Virus record (IMG/VR): IMGVR_UViG_3300023196_000914 | Span: 1 to 20,035 of that record | Origin: a virus | DNA: 20,035 bases | Reading direction: 5' to 3' (one strand) | Shown: in pieces, positions 1,647-12,680 of the stretch | Layout: the number at the start of each line of letters is the position of its first letter | Position numbering within the stretch: position 1 is the stretch's first letter | Notes under the pieces: model-generated | Told to the model about the DNA's origin: nothing | Seen by the model: the letters and a program-made list of their open reading frames with translations, nothing else | Database searches by the model: none | Translations under genes and position numbers: made by a program

Positions 1647-4035
1647 GGAAGATAAATCTCCATTCGTCCCTTAACTCATCTACCGTCATATTCCTAAACC
1701 TTTCTTGCTCAGCCTTAGGTAATGAATCAAACGCATCTCCAGCAGGACCTTGTCTGTACTCTTCTATGAGTTGTTGAACTGCACTACGCTCATCAGCTCT
1801 TAGGTCCTCTCCCTGCATCTCTGCTTGCACATCCATCTGCATCATCTCTTCATCGGTTATCGTAGGGTCAAAGGTCTCTGTATTCTCTACGTCAGCCTTA
1901 AACCTATCTCCAGCGAAGGGTAGGTTAAATTGTTTAATAGCTTCTAGTTGAACCTCAGGACTCTCATCCTTAATACCCTTAGCTAGGGCAGCCTCATCAC
2001 TGACAGGAGCTTTCTCTTCTTCACCATTCAAGATAGCCTTAAGCTTCTTCTGTACATCTTCATCTAAGTTACCTAGTGCAAACTCAGAGTCTATCGTCTT
2101 AAGTAAATCAACACTCTGATTAAGCGCTAAGTTATCTTTCTTCATAGACTCCATCTCTGATACAGTCATACCTGAACGACTAGCTTCTCTCTGTACTTGG
2201 TTGATAGGAGTTAACTTACCTTCTACTGCATGAGGAGGTATACCAGATGAACTAATCATAAAGTCCATACGAGCTTTGTCACTACCTAACTCTGTAAGGA
2301 AAGCATCATCTTGTGAGTATCGCTTAACTACTTCTAACTGTTTATTCAGAGAGTCTGCTACTGCCTGTCTACTTGCCCTATTAGCTTTGAGCCTAGCTGT
2401 TGTTACACCAGCAGGAGTTCCATGTATTCCTAATCTACCTGTGGCTGCTTCTCTACTAGCAATCTCTTCATCTGCAAGTAAAGGTACTTTAAACGTACTA
2501 GTACTAGTATCGTAAGTTACACCTTGGTCTCTTACACCTTTAGCTATATTAGTAGATAAGGTCTCTCTGTTATATTGTATTACCTTACGACCTAGAGCTT
2601 CTTTAATCTCAGGAGTTATCTGAGGGCTACTATACAACTCTCTAATCTTACCACTGTTAAGTAGGGAGAGAGCTCTGTGCTTATCCTCCTCAGTACCGCG
2701 TTCCTCTGCAAACTCTAGTACTTCAATCATACTCATAGTCATAGAGTCCACACCAGCTTTAGAGGAGTTAGTAATTACATCTTCTCCTTTAATGAAGGAG
2801 TTAACCGTATTCCACATAGTCTCTGCTACAGCTTGTTGATCATCAGCGTTGTAATCCTTAATAGACTTACCTTCTCCCATTCCTGCCATAACACCCATCT
2901 GGAACTGGAAAGCTTCATCCTTAGATAGTACGACCTTCCCTAAACCTTTAGCCATGATGTCGTTTAGCTGACTCTTGAACCCTGTGTTATTAACTAGATG
3001 TTCTTTAACTAAGTCACCAAATGCTCTCTCACCTACTACGCCTTTAAGTTTAGCTAATTCAGGAGAGTACTTAAGTAAGTTAATCTTCTCTTTGTTTTGT
3101 AACATAGTAGCTATCTGAGCGTAAGAACCAAAGAAGTCATCTTGCATATCTCCTATGAACTTCTCAGAAGAATCTATTCTTTCCATAGCTCTCTTATGTA
3201 CTTCCTTATACGTAGCCAACCCTTGCTTATCTAATCCACCTATCTGATTAGCAGTCATTAGATTCTCTGTGCTACTACGTACGGTCTTCATAAGCCCCAT
3301 CAGTGCAGCCTTAGAAGCTACTACTTGCTCAGTAGAATCTTGTCCTGTCCTAGCTGCAATAGCTAAGTTATTCTTGTGTAGTATAATCGCTGAGTTAAGT
3401 ATCTCTTGAGTCTTACCTTCGTGAAGTGTGTAAGCGTCTGTCATACCACCAACCTCACCCTTAGCTGCTGCTATCTGAGCTTTCTCTAATGCATTAGCAT
3501 CTACTATAGCCTTCTGTTGATTCTGCCTAGCTTGGCTATTAACCTCTGCTATCTCATCGTCACTAAGGTCAGCGATAGACTTACCTGCGTGTGCATCCAT
3601 CATAGCTGAAGCACTAAACTCTTTCAGAGAACCAAACTCATTGTGTAATCTAGTAGACCTTTGCTGCCTAGCTGACCCTGCACCTGCTCCTATAGAAGAA
3701 GCCCCGAAGTGTTGAGCTACCAACTGGTCTACCTGTAACCTCTGTGAAGGAGAGAAGCCATGTGTCTTAACTAACTTAGAAGCTTCTCTAAAGAACTGAG
3801 AGTCGTCTACTTGGCCTCGTATGTCCTCTAGCTTATCAATAATACCTACACCTTTAGATAAGACATCCTTTCTAGCTGCTTCCTTCTTATTAGTCTTTAC
3901 TCTATCGTGTACCTGCATACCAAAGCTTAAAGCAGCACCTACGTCCTGGACTGTAGATGTATTCCTAGATACGTCTGGTACTGTAACCTTAGCTTGGGCC
4001 ACTGGTGTAGTTAGTTCTTTAGAAAAACTAGCCAT
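1636..4035 (-). CDS. Internal virion / DNA-ejection protein, gp15-like by size and place (799 aa)
   Basis: A large, almost entirely helical, charged protein with no signal peptide and no clear membrane segment. Ala, Gln, Glu and Lys dominate, and many stretches could form long helices (for example residues 150-200 and 270-300). The C-terminus is acidic up to about residue 775 (DEEMMQMDVQAEMQGEDL). Its length is close to T7 gp15 (747 aa), and it is paired with another very large internal virion protein, so I infer a component of the ejected core that helps carry DNA across the periplasm. I could not see an enzyme motif. In T7 the gp15-like gene precedes the gp16-like gene; here the order is reversed. 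The ATG follows the previous TAA as TAATAATG, with AGGGGA inside the previous gene as the ribosome-binding site. Confidence 0.8.
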   Translation of the reverse strand: MASFSKELTTPVAQAKVTVPDVSRNTSTVQDVGAALSFGMQVHDRVKTNKKEAARKDVLSKGVGIIDKLEDIRGQVDDSQFFREASKLVKTHGFSPSQRLQVDQLVAQHFGASSIGAGAGSARQQRSTRLHNEFGSLKEFSASAMMDAHAGKSIADLSDDEIAEVNSQARQNQQKAIVDANALEKAQIAAAKGEVGGMTDAYTLHEGKTQEILNSAIILHKNNLAIAARTGQDSTEQVVASKAALMGLMKTVRSSTENLMTANQIGGLDKQGLATYKEVHKRAMERIDSSEKFIGDMQDDFFGSYAQIATMLQNKEKINLLKYSPELAKLKGVVGERAFGDLVKEHLVNNTGFKSQLNDIMAKGLGKVVLSKDEAFQFQMGVMAGMGEGKSIKDYNADDQQAVAETMWNTVNSFIKGEDVITNSSKAGVDSMTMSMIEVLEFAEERGTEEDKHRALSLLNSGKIRELYSSPQITPEIKEALGRKVIQYNRETLSTNIAKGVRDQGVTYDTSTSTFKVPLLADEEIASREAATGRLGIHGTPAGVTTARLKANRASRQAVADSLNKQLEVVKRYSQDDAFLTELGSDKARMDFMISSSGIPPHAVEGKLTPINQVQREASRSGMTVSEMESMKKDNLALNQSVDLLKTIDSEFALGNLDEDVQKKLKAILNGEEEKAPVSDEAALAKGIKDESPEVQLEAIKQFNLPFAGDRFKADVENTETFDPTITDEEMMQMDVQAEMQGEDLRADERSAVQQLIEEYRQGPAGDAFDSLPKAEQERFRNMTVDELRDEWRFIFHAR

Positions 4036-4037
4036 TA

Positions 4038-7000
4038 TTATTCTTCCCCTCTATTCAATTCTTGTCTTAGTACAGCTTGGTTAACACCTCTAGCTGTAGC
4101 ACCTGTTGACTGTGCATCAAACTTACTCATGTTATAGATTAACCTTTTGAGAGAGTCATCTTGAGTTTGAGCATTTCTAACGCCATTGATATAATCACCA
4201 TGTAACCCATACTCATGAGCCAACATACTTACTCCGTGAAGGGATTGGTTTATCTCGTTAACTCTATCTAAGTCACCCTTAGCATAAGCCTCTGAAGCTT
4301 CTCTGTGGAACTTAACAGCCATACCTACGAAGGTATTCACCTTAGTTCTTCTATCTTCTTTAGCGATATAGCTTAGTGTAGTATTCTCATAAGCTTGTGG
4401 AGGTAAACCACCTACCATTAACCAAGCTCCTATATCGTCAATACCTGCGTATCTCTTACCGTTCTTATCGAAGATATAACCAAATCGTAAGGCCAAGTCT
4501 AGCTTCTCTAAAGATTTAAGCGAGGTAATCTCACTCTTAAGAATCTCTAGACTAGCTCTACCTACGTTATCTAGAGTAGGGTCATTCATAATACCGTAAC
4601 CTTCTATACTACGATATACCGTACCAAGAAGACCACTCATCATCTGTCCACTAGCACCTGTTGCTACTTCTGCTGCTGTCTTATCTGTAAACATTCTTAC
4701 GAAGTCTGTTACGAATTGACCTACACCTGCTCTACCTGCGAAGTTAGTATTAACCTCTCCCTCAGATAGATGGTAAATCATTGCGTCTATAGCTCCATTA
4801 GTTAGAGCCTTAGCAGCAGTGGTACTCTCTAAGTCCTGAGATTTAGCTGTGTACATATTAACCAAAGTATCTACTACTGGAATACCTGCACTGCCGTACA
4901 AGAGTCCTTGCATAAGGAGTAGCTGTGTCTTCTCAGCTTTAGTGAAAGACTTACCAAACATAGAACCAATCAACCTGAATGGGTAAGACCAGAACTGTGT
5001 AGGCACTCCTACTAACCCTCGAAAGCCTAACTGTACATCTTGAGCACTCATACCTAACGATAATCTATGTGTCTCATTACCTATCCAAGCTCTTCCTTCT
5101 GGAGAGTTAGGGGAGAGTTTCTTAGGGTTAAGTTTAGCATCTCCTAACCATCTTCCTCTAGCTGCACCATAAGCAGTCAATCTAGATAGTAACTCACCAG
5201 CGTTAAATGCTGACCTACTCCAATCGGCTACTGTACTCATAGCACTAGAACCTAACTGAGCTCCATTATACGCACCAATCTCTGCGATACCCTTACCGAT
5301 GTTACCTAAGCCTAAGTGTTTAAACTCTGACATATAATCTAAGAAGTCTTCCTTACTACTGAAACCTCCAGCCTTCCAACCCTTAGCTATAATATGTAGC
5401 ATCTTATCGTCTACACCTCCAGCAAGAGCTAACTTAGCTGGGAGTGCATTCTTAGCAGCACCCATACCATACCTTGGAGAGAGAGCTACTATATTAGTTA
5501 TATTGATTGCTTGCATTATAAACGATGCTGGGTTAAAAGCTCCTAGCTTAGCGTTAAACACAAGGTTCTTAACTCTACCAGCTGGGTCTACAGCAGCAGC
5601 GTCTAGTGCTCCTTTCCTTAGAGAACCCTTCTCCATCCACCCTGAGTCTAGTTTAGTTCTCCAGAAGCTAGCCTTATCGAAGACCATATCTAAGAAGCTC
5701 TGAGCCTTCTGTACGTACTCTTCTTCCCACTTAGTACGTTGGGATATAATATCTGTTAAGTACTGCTGGTGAGCCTCTATGGACCTCCTAAGGCCAGGTT
5801 TATCATCTAGGTGCTTAAGGGGAGCTGCTTTTAATAACTCAATAGGGTTAGCGTGTGGGTCAATAGATAGATACCTTCTAAACTTATCACTCATAAGCTT
5901 TAGCATGTTATCTCTGTAACCACTGATACTAGCGAACTTAGCAGCTGTATTAAGTGAGTCAGAGAGAGCACCCATTGGGTCTAAGATTAAACTCTTCTCC
6001 CCATCTAGGTTCTTGAGTCTATCTCCTCTCATACCATTCATCTGATTACGTACACTAGCCATCATAGGTTCATCAGAGTCATCTCTAAATCTTCTAAGGT
6101 CTTCTCCGCTTAGTTTACTCTCTACGTCTACCTGCTTTCTATCTCTTACTGCTCCGAAGTGTATGTCATCATATTTAAATAACCCATGACTCTTAAAGAT
6201 AGCGTGTGCTTCCTTAGCTGTGTGCATACCTACTGCACCTAAATCCATCTTAGCTACTAAGTCATCTAAGTCACTTAGCTTCTCAAAGGGAGTCTCTTTT
6301 AGTTTAGTAAGTAACTCCCCGAAGTGGTCAGATACCTTCTTAGCTGTCTTCATAGAGATTGCACCAAACATAGCGACATCAGGCATACGTATTACCTTAC
6401 CTGACTTAGTACGCTTAACTCTAGCTGCTTTAAGGTAAGCTGGGTAGTTATTAACTCTACGCCCTCCAGCCTTATGTGGCATCTGTGCTTGTCCTAACTT
6501 CTTACCTTTTGACTTCTTAGGTACGTAAGCATAGCGAACTACTTCATCAGAGATACCCTCTTCAAACAGACTAGCTCTAAACCTACTACCTAGGTTAACT
6601 AAGTTATGAGTCTTACTTAACTCTTTCAGTGTCTTCTCATCTAATCCACCTTCCTTAGCAGTAGAAGAAGCTTTACCATCTTCAAAGATATGAACATCTT
6701 CACTATTAGTCTTATTAACTATAATCGTATTATGGTCTACCTCTGCTGCATTGAACTTAATGTCGCCCCCTACACTTACGGTATACTCTTTATGACCTAA
6801 TGCTTCTGCTTCTCGATGTAATGCTTTATTCTTAATTTCCCAATCAAAGTCATTCAATTGTTTATATGCGTAGTAAGCTTCAACCTCTTGTGACGTTGGG
6901 GCTCTCCCTACTCTACTATTAAATGCTCCTACTAGACCTTTCTGAGTTAACCACACATCTTCATCAACACCCTTCTGTACTATACTCCAAAGAGCTACAG

Positions 7001-8980: not shown

Positions 8981-9430
8981 CTAAAGTCTCCTCTCGTAAA
9001 TTATCTCTTTAACCTCATACCCTGCTTTAACAGGTATACTAGATTCCTTAGGATAAGAGACTAGTAGTGAGTCCACACCTTCTTCTTTTAATATTGTATC
9101 CATAGTCTTTTGCATAACTGTAGTAACTCCTTGTTCTCTGAACTTAGGCTCTACATATATACCTAAGTCTCTTGATTCTAGTTCACTAGTGTTATATATA
9201 CTAGGGAGTATCACACATACGTAGTAGCCAACTGGCTCTCCCTCTAAGGTCCTAGCAGCAAGAGTGAACATAGCACCTCTATCTTCAGCACCCTCAAAGA
9301 AGTCCCTACTTACTGATACTTCTTTATTATAAATTTCCATGTAGTGTCTATTAAAAAGAGGGAGAAACTCATCGAAGATATCGTGTATACTCTCCCACCT
9401 CAATACTACATCTTGCTTTTGATCGACCAT
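8981..9430 (-). CDS. GNAT-fold protein, analogue of T7 gp13 (149 aa)
   Basis: The C-terminal half has the pattern of GCN5-related N-acetyltransferases: a strand (DLGIYVEP, residues 88-95), the loop-helix that normally grips the acyl-CoA pyrophosphate (FREQGVTTVMQKTMDTIL, 97-114), another strand (SLLVSYP) and a final KAGYEVKEIIYERR segment (135-148). The pyrophosphate loop keeps R-x-x-G but has Thr where Gly or Ala is usual (REQGVT, 98-103). T7 gp13, at the same place between nozzle and ejection proteins, is also GNAT-like and is needed for virion assembly, so a structural or assembly role is as likely as acetyl transfer. The gene starts 25 bases inside the end of the nozzle C-terminal ORF, with only a weak ribosome-binding site, which suggests coupled translation. 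The stop is TAG. Confidence 0.82.
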   Translation of the reverse strand: MVDQKQDVVLRWESIHDIFDEFLPLFNRHYMEIYNKEVSVSRDFFEGAEDRGAMFTLAARTLEGEPVGYYVCVILPSIYNTSELESRDLGIYVEPKFREQGVTTVMQKTMDTILKEEGVDSLLVSYPKESSIPVKAGYEVKEIIYERRL

Positions 9431-10677
9431 TGTATAGTATACCCTAGTAGTTGGAAGTCTTTGTTAGCTTCTTGTTCAAACCTAAGTGATAAAGCTTTAC
9501 CTCTACCTCTTATCTTATTCTTAGTTGTAATAACCGATTCACCTGAGTCAAAAGGTTCTGCTTGTACAGGAGTGAAAGCTCTCCTAAACCTATAGACCTG
9601 TTGGTAAGGTGCGAACCTTCCATTAGCGTCTGAGTTATTCCAATCCCATTGAGCTCTTAGTTGACAGCCAGATGGTAGGTCTAACTCGAAACCACCCCCT
9701 CCATCGCTAATCCAATTCTCTTCTGTCTGTTTGAAGTGAGTTACTAGTGTAGGAGCACTCTTAGCGTTGCTAGGCTTCTGTAAGGTCTCATGCCCTGTCT
9801 CTAGGTAAGCAGTAGGGTAGTCACTGCCAAAGTCTTGAAAGGTTGTGTCATCTCTACGGCCTACCTTAACTGTGTAAGCAGGGGTAGCTACACCCACCTG
9901 ACGCATTGATATAAAGAAGGGTCCATCATCTCTTAACGCAGTCGTATCTACACCACCTACAAGTGTCTCAGATACCGTAGCATCCTCAACAACTTTACCG
10001 TTAGTTTGGGTAGGAAACCAACCACCTGTCTTGAGGTTAAGGTTAAGTCCTAGTGTATGAGCCCTTAGGATATCTGGCCCTGTAGCTTCAGCTATGTTGT
10101 TATAAGCCCACTCAATTACGTTATCCTTCTTATTGTAGAAACCGTAACAGTACTTCTTACCGACTAAGGTTATACCTGCGTAGTAAGTCTCTATAGTATT
10201 ATCTATAACACTCTTCTCTTCTAACACTGAGTATTGATTAGTAGTTATCTGGTGTATCTTATTCTCTGACCAGTAGTAGTACGCACCCTCTACTTGTACA
10301 ATAGCTTGAGCTGATATGCACCCTGCATCTGTTATCTTACGTAGAGAGAACTCCGTTGCTTTAAACCCTGACTTAGGCCCTGACAACTCCCATACTCCGT
10401 TACTACAAAAGATAACAACTCCATTAGAGGACTCCTTTAGAGAGATACCTCTGTCAGCACTATTGATAGGGACTGTACCTCCATCTGTATCTAGTATATT
10501 ATTTAACTGTTCTGCTGTAGGGTCGTTCTTTTGGTAACACTTAGATAGGAAAGCTACACTACCTCCTTCCATCACTTGTGAGTAATACACTACATTCTTT
10601 ACTAAGTAGAAGATTCTACCTGCTGTGAATACAGAGGATACTGGTCTTTCGTCTATCGTTTCATTAGCTATAGTCAT
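9406..10677 (-). CDS. Tail nozzle protein, C-terminal part (T7 gp12-like, 423 aa)
   Basis: This ORF reads in the same frame as the 342-aa ORF before it, separated only by one TAA codon. Residues 10-26 (ERPVSSVFTAGRIFYLV), followed by a strand and NVVYYSQV, match what I know of the middle of T7 gp12-type nozzle (tail tubular B) proteins, where an R-x-x-x-F-x-x-(G/N)-R-L/I-F/W-Y segment opens a beta-blade. Other propeller-like strands follow (NGVVIFCSNGVWELSG, AYYYWSENKIHQI). The protein lacks the expected N-terminal platform. Together with its partner it makes 765 residues, near T7 gp12 (794). The Shine-Dalgarno before its ATG is poor, so translation is likely by termination-reinitiation at TAAATG or by read-through. 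The product should be part of the tail tip tube. Confidence 0.85.
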   Translation of the reverse strand: MTIANETIDERPVSSVFTAGRIFYLVKNVVYYSQVMEGGSVAFLSKCYQKNDPTAEQLNNILDTDGGTVPINSADRGISLKESSNGVVIFCSNGVWELSGPKSGFKATEFSLRKITDAGCISAQAIVQVEGAYYYWSENKIHQITTNQYSVLEEKSVIDNTIETYYAGITLVGKKYCYGFYNKKDNVIEWAYNNIAEATGPDILRAHTLGLNLNLKTGGWFPTQTNGKVVEDATVSETLVGGVDTTALRDDGPFFISMRQVGVATPAYTVKVGRRDDTTFQDFGSDYPTAYLETGHETLQKPSNAKSAPTLVTHFKQTEENWISDGGGGFELDLPSGCQLRAQWDWNNSDANGRFAPYQQVYRFRRAFTPVQAEPFDSGESVITTKNKIRGRGKALSLRFEQEANKDFQLLGYTIQWSIKSKM

Positions 10678-11706
10678 TTATGGAGTTCCAGGAATATCTG
10701 TCCAACCGCTACCATCAGTACCACCACCTTCACCACCACCACCAGTGTAAGCTCCTGACTCATCAAAGTTCAATATCTTATCGTCTCTATCTATATCAAA
10801 AGCATTGAAGATGTAGTGACCTCTTGGTGCTGGGGAGTCTCCGAAGGTTATGTCATCTAGGACATCCTCATCAAAGAACTGCGTGAACCCACCTACGGTT
10901 ACATCCTCTACCATAGCTAAGTGTACGATGTCTGCGTTACTAGGGTTAAGAGATAGCTGAACAGTGTATCTACTGATAGGGGACTGTGTTGCCCCTCCTG
11001 CTGCTACTCTTCTAGGTTTATACCAACCTTGGTTATATAAGTTATACTCATGTATCTCTGTCATAGAGGGGTACAACGCAGAGACTGTATCCCCTACTGG
11101 GAAGTCTCCAATCACTGTGTGCTTACCTACCTCTACTCCTGATTCTAACCCTACTACATCTCTAACCTTTAAATTAAGCTTAGTGAAAGAGACTGTGGCT
11201 GCACTTACGTTATACCTTAAGAGTGTTGGCTCTATAGCTTCTGAGGTTATCATTACATAACCCTTTACAGCTGAGTATTGGATTGGGGTTCTCTCCGCAA
11301 GTATCAATGTACCTTTATCTGTACCAGACTTAATGTCATCTAGGTATAGGTAAACACCAAAGAGTATTGTAATCATATCATCGCTATCTGCATCACAGAA
11401 GAGAAGGCGATCCCCTTGCTGTATTATCAGAAAGTTAGAGTCTGCATCACCTCCTGCGTTCTCCCATAAGTGCCAAGAGTAAGCGAGTTCACCACTGTCA
11501 GCAGGTAACCCTACCGTTGTGTCGTTGGCAGTTAGGTATAACGAGCTATGCCCTAGCCTAGCCTTTAAACGCATAGGTGTAAGGTCTACTTCTAGATTAA
11601 GTAAATCTACAGCAGAGTCTTGAGGGAAGTCTAGTAAGTTAGCCTCAGTGTTTAAGCCCTTAAAGGGTAACCTGTACTCTTTATCACCCCTAGCTCTCTT
11701 AGCCAT
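10678..11706 (-). CDS. Tail nozzle protein, N-terminal part (T7 gp12-like, 342 aa)
   Basis: The N-terminus (residues 17-41) contains GLNTEANLLDFPQDSAVDLL followed by NLEVD and a basic stretch, the typical opening of podovirus tail tubular B / nozzle proteins, in which the start contacts the gatekeeper ring. The remainder is beta-rich and consistent with the platform and first blades of the nozzle. The last 25 residues are unusual: a Gly-rich run (YTGGGGEGGGTDGSG) followed by WTDIPGTP and TAA, after which the frame continues at once with the 423-aa ORF. Alone it is less than half of a normal nozzle. Its ATG follows the TAG stop of the 71-aa gene with no spacer. It may be a genuine separate subunit, or the first half of a gene interrupted by a nonsense codon. 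Confidence 0.85.
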   Translation of the reverse strand: MAKRARGDKEYRLPFKGLNTEANLLDFPQDSAVDLLNLEVDLTPMRLKARLGHSSLYLTANDTTVGLPADSGELAYSWHLWENAGGDADSNFLIIQQGDRLLFCDADSDDMITILFGVYLYLDDIKSGTDKGTLILAERTPIQYSAVKGYVMITSEAIEPTLLRYNVSAATVSFTKLNLKVRDVVGLESGVEVGKHTVIGDFPVGDTVSALYPSMTEIHEYNLYNQGWYKPRRVAAGGATQSPISRYTVQLSLNPSNADIVHLAMVEDVTVGGFTQFFDEDVLDDITFGDSPAPRGHYIFNAFDIDRDDKILNFDESGAYTGGGGEGGGTDGSGWTDIPGTP

Positions 11707-11922
11707 CTACTTTGCAACCTTCTGCTTCTTAGGTACATGACTAGCTATGTAATGTTTAATAGCTATCTCCATCTGCCTAATGTCATTCCATCCACCACTC
11801 AGCTTAGCTGGTAGCTCTCCTCCTGACTTAAAAGCAATCTCATATAGGTTCTTACCATCTGGTACTCGGTAACCTATCTCTTTACCCGCTTTAGTTTTAC
11901 CTACTACTTTAAATGTAGCCAT
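11707..11922 (-). CDS. Small protein between gatekeeper and nozzle genes (71 aa)
   Basis: I do not recognise this protein. It is small, basic and soluble (MATFKVVGKTKAGKEIGYRV at the start, SHVPKKQKVAK at the end), with a probable beta-hairpin followed by a helix around residues 46-63 (DIRQMEIAIKHYIASHV). Its start overlaps the TAA stop of the gatekeeper gene by one base (TAATG), with a purine-rich GAGAAGAG upstream, and its TAG stop is joined directly to the ATG of the nozzle gene. Such tight packing between two tail genes makes it very likely to be translated. It could be a minor tail, assembly or accessory head-completion protein. No enzyme motif is seen. Confidence 0.75.
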   Translation of the reverse strand: MATFKVVGKTKAGKEIGYRVPDGKNLYEIAFKSGGELPAKLSGGWNDIRQMEIAIKHYIASHVPKKQKVAK

Positions 11923-12680
11923 TATACTCTTCTCCCATAAAGTGCTTTTCTTGTACTAGCACCTATACGTTGTTTCTTTCTAGCTCTAAGTAAACCAAGT
12001 TTACCCTTCTTAGCTACACTAAACAGTGGCTCTTCTCTTAGGGCTTCACTTGATTCTGCTATTACTAAGTTTTGGTAAGTAGGATGGAACCATTCAGGTA
12101 AGTCTATTTCATAAGCATCTGACTGTGTGAAGGTTCTCTGGCTAGAAGTCATTATACCTGACTTACTTCCTTGTAGTGTAGACTCTATATCACTATCGTG
12201 AGAGTCAAAGACGAGGTATTTATCGTCAAAGGAGGTAAAGTAATCAGGAGCTTTATCTGTGCGGATAACATAATCATATCCACTGAAATCTTCTACTTCA
12301 AGAATACCTGTAGCCTCTGTACTTCTTAACCCTACTTTCTCTAGGAAAGCGGGAGGATCTAGGTAAGGTATCTTTTTAAATTTGATTGATGAACCTGTGC
12401 TCTTAGCTACGTTATACATAACTTGATTACGCTCTATCTTTAAAACATTATCTGGTAGGGCAAGGTAATTTGGTCTAGCTACATCTGCTAAAGACTCTAA
12501 CTGTACTAAGTCTCTGCTTAGACTGTTATTAAATACATCTGAGATAACTTCATTAAATACTTTCTCAGCTAGGGATGCGACTTGTTGTGATTCGATAGTA
12601 TCATCTATTGTAGCTACCCTGAATCCATCAGTCATATCCATATAAGTGTTTACTATAGAGAGTAATGTTAATTTAGCCAT
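11922..12680 (-). CDS. Tail gatekeeper / tail tubular protein A (T7 gp11-like, 252 aa)
   Basis: A probable adaptor ring protein that docks on the portal and carries the nozzle. Residues 24-35 read TIDDTIESQQVA, a signature commonly seen near the N-terminus of T7 gp11-type proteins, followed by a helix (SLAEKVFNEVISDVF). The middle is beta-rich and includes a conserved-looking LALPDNVLKIERNQVMY segment (residues about 74-90). The end is basic and helical (LGLLRARKKQRIGASTRK). Its length is a little above T7 gp11 (196 aa) and fits marine relatives. It is the first gene after the only intergenic gap, just where T7 has gene 11 behind the terminator. The ribosome-binding site is weak (GGTG), so it may be made at a lower level than the capsid proteins. 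Confidence 0.87.
   Translation of the reverse strand: MAKLTLLSIVNTYMDMTDGFRVATIDDTIESQQVASLAEKVFNEVISDVFNNSLSRDLVQLESLADVARPNYLALPDNVLKIERNQVMYNVAKSTGSSIKFKKIPYLDPPAFLEKVGLRSTEATGILEVEDFSGYDYVIRTDKAPDYFTSFDDKYLVFDSHDSDIESTLQGSKSGIMTSSQRTFTQSDAYEIDLPEWFHPTYQNLVIAESSEALREEPLFSVAKKGKLGLLRARKKQRIGASTRKALYGRRV

Follow-up and report, generated by a model that had tools for sequence, protein, structure and literature searches.

The tail nozzle of this short-tailed phage, as a rule a single protein, is encoded by two adjacent genes. The same two-gene state was found in relatives that form one clade with it; the junction varies between members, both halves are under selection, and the joined sequence was modelled with the fold of a nozzle. 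Very probably a single ancestral fission has divided the gene, both halves are real genes and their two chains rebuild one nozzle subunit. As far as can be judged from the sequences, this gene fission is fixed, and it is an ancient and stably kept state across a large phage lineage; neither a mutation nor a sequencing error accounts for it. The window spans the complete IMG/VR virus record (20,035 bases), and the features of its nozzle region are as follows.

11706 to 10678, minus strand: N-terminal nozzle gene, 342 aa, with a Gly-rich tail and the end ...GTP; first part of PHROG 8094 (tail appendage / tubular tail protein B)
10677 to 9406, minus strand: C-terminal nozzle gene, 423 aa, starting with MTIANETIDERPVSSVFTAGRIFY; profile match to PHROG 8094
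10675 to 10680, minus strand: stop-start junction TAA-ATG, spacer zero
10687 to 10689, minus strand: weak Shine-Dalgarno-like GGA, 5' of the second start, -3.3 kcal/mol
10696 to 10755, minus strand: Gly-rich linker, first-chain residues 318-337, predicted disordered (AlphaFold pLDDT <50)
11707 to 11922, minus strand: small gene, 71 aa, PHROG 9082, upstream of and abutting the nozzle gene (TAG-ATG); outside the nozzle
11922 to 12680, minus strand: tail protein / adaptor (tubular tail A type), PHROG 7592, upstream neighbour

The preliminary description had stated that the 342-aa and 423-aa ORFs lie in one frame and are divided only by the TAA at 10680-10678, directly followed by ATG. This was borne out on the sequence, and the GGGGEGGG stretch and the ETIDERPVSSVFTAGRIFY start are likewise present as claimed. 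Due to the fact that abutting genes always share a frame by geometry, the common frame and the lone stop at the nozzle are unremarkable and incidental. A zero-spacer stop and start was found in 6 of the 18 neighbouring gene pairs of the window (8980/8981, 10677/10678, 11706/11707, 15218/15219, 17000/17001 and 18587/18588). The neighbours of the nozzle genes in the window are the adaptor-type tail protein, the small ORF, a GNAT-like acetyltransferase and an internal virion protein, and the order adaptor, small ORF, nozzle, internal virion proteins is similar in Zobellviridae records. The GNAT-like acetyltransferase gene (window 8981-9430) shares 25 nt with the end of the C-half gene, and several relatives also have a GNAT gene after the nozzle gene.

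The assignment to a tail nozzle was supported, as both ORFs match one PHROG family in order and the joined model has a nozzle fold. The first ORF matches positions 1-288 of the 769 positions of the PHROG 8094 profile (E 8e-36), while the best stretch of the second ORF begins at position 349 of 769, with a whole-protein E of 1e-87. The family is thus not covered by a single open reading frame in the window but by two genes, like in the rest of the split clade. When the C half by itself was searched by sequence directly against the PDB, no match was obtained. Between T7 gp12 and the window family no significant sequence or profile match was found, so that the break is not placed on the T7 blades or tip. 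The family profile detects the single-chain nozzle of cyanophage A4 by sequence, with stretches of both halves in order.

For structure prediction the TAA was read as Gln, solely to permit a joined AlphaFold2 model of 766 residues. This model reached a pLDDT of 84.2 and a pTM of 0.84, with pLDDT <50 only at 573-575 and at 318-337, the sole long stretch, which is the Gly-rich linker and stops five residues short of the first-chain end. Solved tail nozzles were the top PDB matches of the joined model, namely cyanophage A4 (9k09_U, E 2e-24), T7 gp12 (7boy_s, E 9e-14) and P22 gp10 (8eap_D, E 4e-11). The top BFVD matches were single-chain phage proteins, one of them of 739 aa with TM 0.83/0.86. In T7 the nozzle is hexameric, and its parts are a platform, a propeller, a fibre dock and a tip (PMC6702177). 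T7 gp12, or tubular tail protein B, is a single chain of 794 aa, whereas the nozzle of the window is encoded by two genes. Since the alignment behind the model contains mostly single-gene relatives, the model gives the joined fold and is not proof of chains that still associate; a model from nine split-only rows, too shallow an alignment to be informative, had a pLDDT of 42 and a pTM of 0.34.

A first scan yielded six close relatives, and wider scans together with phage records extended the set to 114 usable loci. Loci were classed by whether the N- and C-half profile matches fall in one stop-to-stop ORF or not, with five rows set by hand. All six close relatives from the first scan have two genes. 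A single-gene nozzle was found in 68 of the 114 loci, and a break at the site of the window in 36, the window included; as the loci were ranked by similarity to the C half of the window or its profile, 36/114 is not a population or natural frequency. The remaining loci are broken near residue 190 (5/114: L053, L054, L057-L059), inside the C half (4/114: VpV262, two V. breoganii phages and L022) or by a nonsense codon in the linker (L122, 1/114).

In the tree of both halves the 36 same-site split loci form one clade with an SH-aLRT of 100, which requires one change. When the halves were analysed apart, in a reduced set without RIO-1, the 30 split loci again grouped as one clade in either tree (support 99 for the C half and 99 for the N half). 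These are quick trees with SH-aLRT support only and midpoint rooting, and the single gene is taken as ancestral because T7, P22 and most relatives are single-chain, not from a rooted tree. Two genes are also found in named phages, i.e., RIO-1, Vibrio 172P1 and several Zobellviridae/Melvirus records; RIO-1 and PSA-HP1 are split members available in culture. The preliminary description had expected a split nozzle to be exceptional, but it is the norm throughout one clade, and it stands in the GenBank notes for RIO-1.

Several other interruptions of the nozzle gene were observed. The loci L053, L054, L057, L058 and L059 form a separate clade, in which the break lies at about 4120 in each locus, stop and start overlap or nearly abut (TAATG in three) and the second ORF begins near RPTTLTAAHNYNLRNQGW. 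In L044/L124 (VpV262), L041, L042 and L022 the nozzle gene is broken within the C half, and VpV262 has a separate 98-aa ORF (ORFP), whose annotation notes similarity to the C-terminal region of SIO1 gp27. These nozzles of VpV262, the Vibrio breoganii phages and the L053-L059 group belong to the same family as that of the window and are also broken into pieces, but at other sites, either inside the C half (splitC) or at residue ~190 before YNLxNQGW (splitB). Over 10 kb, the contigs L121 and L122 are identical except at 5 bases, two of them in the linker (4374-4377); here L122 has TAC changed to TAA with no start codon just after, which is a variant or an assembly error. L005/L020 carry an extra in-frame TAA inside the N half at 339-341 (FDP*WLKDQ), where relatives have a sense codon, e.g., FDAEWL.

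When the junction was compared with relatives, as the preliminary description had suggested, every close relative was found to have two genes, with differing stops and spacers. Among the 36 split loci the spacers are -4, -1, 0, 1, 6, 8, 9, 14, 17, 27, 1055 and 1987 nt. The closest relative, L010, whose C half is 67% identical to that of the window, has a 1-nt TAATG overlap and is out of frame. The halves are separated by one to three other genes in L025 (2918-3955) and in L043, i.e., RIO-1 (3963-5914), the two loci with spacers of 1055 and 1987 nt, and these genes belong to PHROGs of unknown function where matched.

These junctions bear on two other explanations, both raised at the outset. Programmed read-through of the TAA would give a minor full-length nozzle besides the two halves, and a joined chain would indeed result in 15 members, the window among them, whose halves share a frame. 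However, the junction is out of frame in 21/36 members, including L010, the halves of some relatives lie further apart, and some in-frame spacers hold further stops (TAG and TAA in L013, TAA and TGA in L065). Conserved read-through is therefore excluded, and a private read-through in the window alone, which nothing favours, is highly improbable. It is hardly credible that the gene is otherwise intact and was interrupted by a recent nonsense mutation, a strain variant or a sequencing error. Such events may occur in the nozzle gene, as the TAC to TAA change between L121 and L122 indicates, but every close relative is two-gene, its second gene has an ATG, the ends are conserved while stops and spacers vary, and the window itself has a proper ATG and an extended linker. 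This explanation was thus refuted by the relatives, while the option of a two-subunit nozzle gained support from their two separate genes, with the assembly of both products being probable.

A TAGGAG-like sequence was found in several junction spacers. Pairing with the anti-Shine-Dalgarno sequence averaged -6.4 kcal/mol at 33 second starts versus -2.4 at 172 internal ATGs within the same genes (p about 4e-11, for rows that are not independent). The control with random positions has some evidently invalid scores (mean +123.7), and the internal-ATG control alone was used. The second start of the window is weak in comparison (-3.3 kcal/mol), and therefore coupled re-initiation at TAAATG is a likely route to the second gene there. 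The dN/dS ratio was 0.05-0.16 in both halves wherever computable, with synonymous change near saturation in the most distant pairs; therefore both halves have been kept as proteins by purifying selection.

The linker between the conserved anchors (window G296 and R364) is 65-79 aa long in four in-frame split members, and among 37 viral-contig relatives with a single gene the median between the same anchors is 40 aa; the Gly-rich tail is absent or short in most of them. Among 33 distinct N halves, 21 have Pro at the end and 19 end in [ILV]P, in many cases after a variable Gly-rich stretch. Pro is terminal in 1.3% of 605 other ORFs of these loci; as the sequences are related, this is to be read as a pattern rather than a test. 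LP also occurs at a comparable place in many single-gene linkers (LPxDxExG), so the [ILV]P end of the N half may be ancestral, a segment possibly retained for docking.

The same N-chain end enters two further explanations. According to the first, the products do not form one subunit, since one half took a separate role outside the nozzle as chaperone, fibre dock or assembly factor. The intervening genes of RIO-1 and L025 and the Gly-rich tail gained by the N half, with its often conserved [ILV]P end, would fit this, but both halves retain conserved positions of the single-chain family, the own tree of each half recovers the same clade, and the single-chain A4 nozzle aligns in order with stretches from the two halves, all of which make a separate role improbable. 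According to the second, the two-chain subunit is obligate (6+6) and the break functional, the Gly-rich tail and [ILV]P end of the N chain being mobile in assembly or channel opening and the repeated fission elsewhere reflecting selection for separable parts. We consider this unlikely, though somewhat less so than a separate role.

RIO-1, a cultured Pseudoalteromonas phage (Melvirus, Zobellviridae), is the nearest described case. Its gp44 and gp40 are broken at the same site as the window nozzle, before an AGRxFY-like segment, and the GenBank notes (KC751414, NC_021300) match gp44 to the N-terminal portion of PA11 gp38 and gp40 to its C-terminal portion. The halves of RIO-1 share descent with those of the window, as the phage falls in the 36-row split clade (SH-aLRT 100), but three genes (gp43-gp41) separate them, whereas the window halves abut with zero spacer. 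The single-chain tail appendage of other Zobellviridae (PA11 gp38, CW02 gp43, ICBM2, CRP-4, ICP2 and Klyazma) is homologous to the window nozzle, and its gene likewise sits between those for the adaptor and the internal virion proteins, but it is one ORF instead of two. Both halves are labelled 'tail appendage' in some oyster-associated phage records, and in some public records they are listed as unrelated hypothetical proteins. Text searches, with the RIO-1 papers of 2013 and 2016 outside their scope, found no paper on the split as a lineage trait. The two-gene nozzle itself is thus already known from the RIO-1 GenBank notes; what may be new is that the split loci form a single clade and that the nozzle gene is also broken at further sites.

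Under the preferred explanation of one ancestral fission, a single-chain nozzle gene would have been split a single time, in the common ancestor of a large lineage that comprises Zobellviridae and relatives. The break would have fallen in a flexible linker that immediately precedes the conserved RPxxxxxxAGRxFY segment. The halves would be translated successively, presumably with stop-start coupling at overlapping or abutting junctions (TAATG, TAAATG, TAGATG) and elsewhere from a Shine-Dalgarno-like site at or beside the first stop. The two chains, expected to assemble 1:1 and to be present in virions, would fold against each other and most likely rebuild one nozzle subunit, with six of each per virion.

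The finding means that a central gating tail protein tolerates division into two genes, and that this division lasts across a deep phage lineage. Split nozzles thereby offer a natural test for the loops of the nozzle that tolerate opening, and they caution annotators not to 'repair' such split genes.
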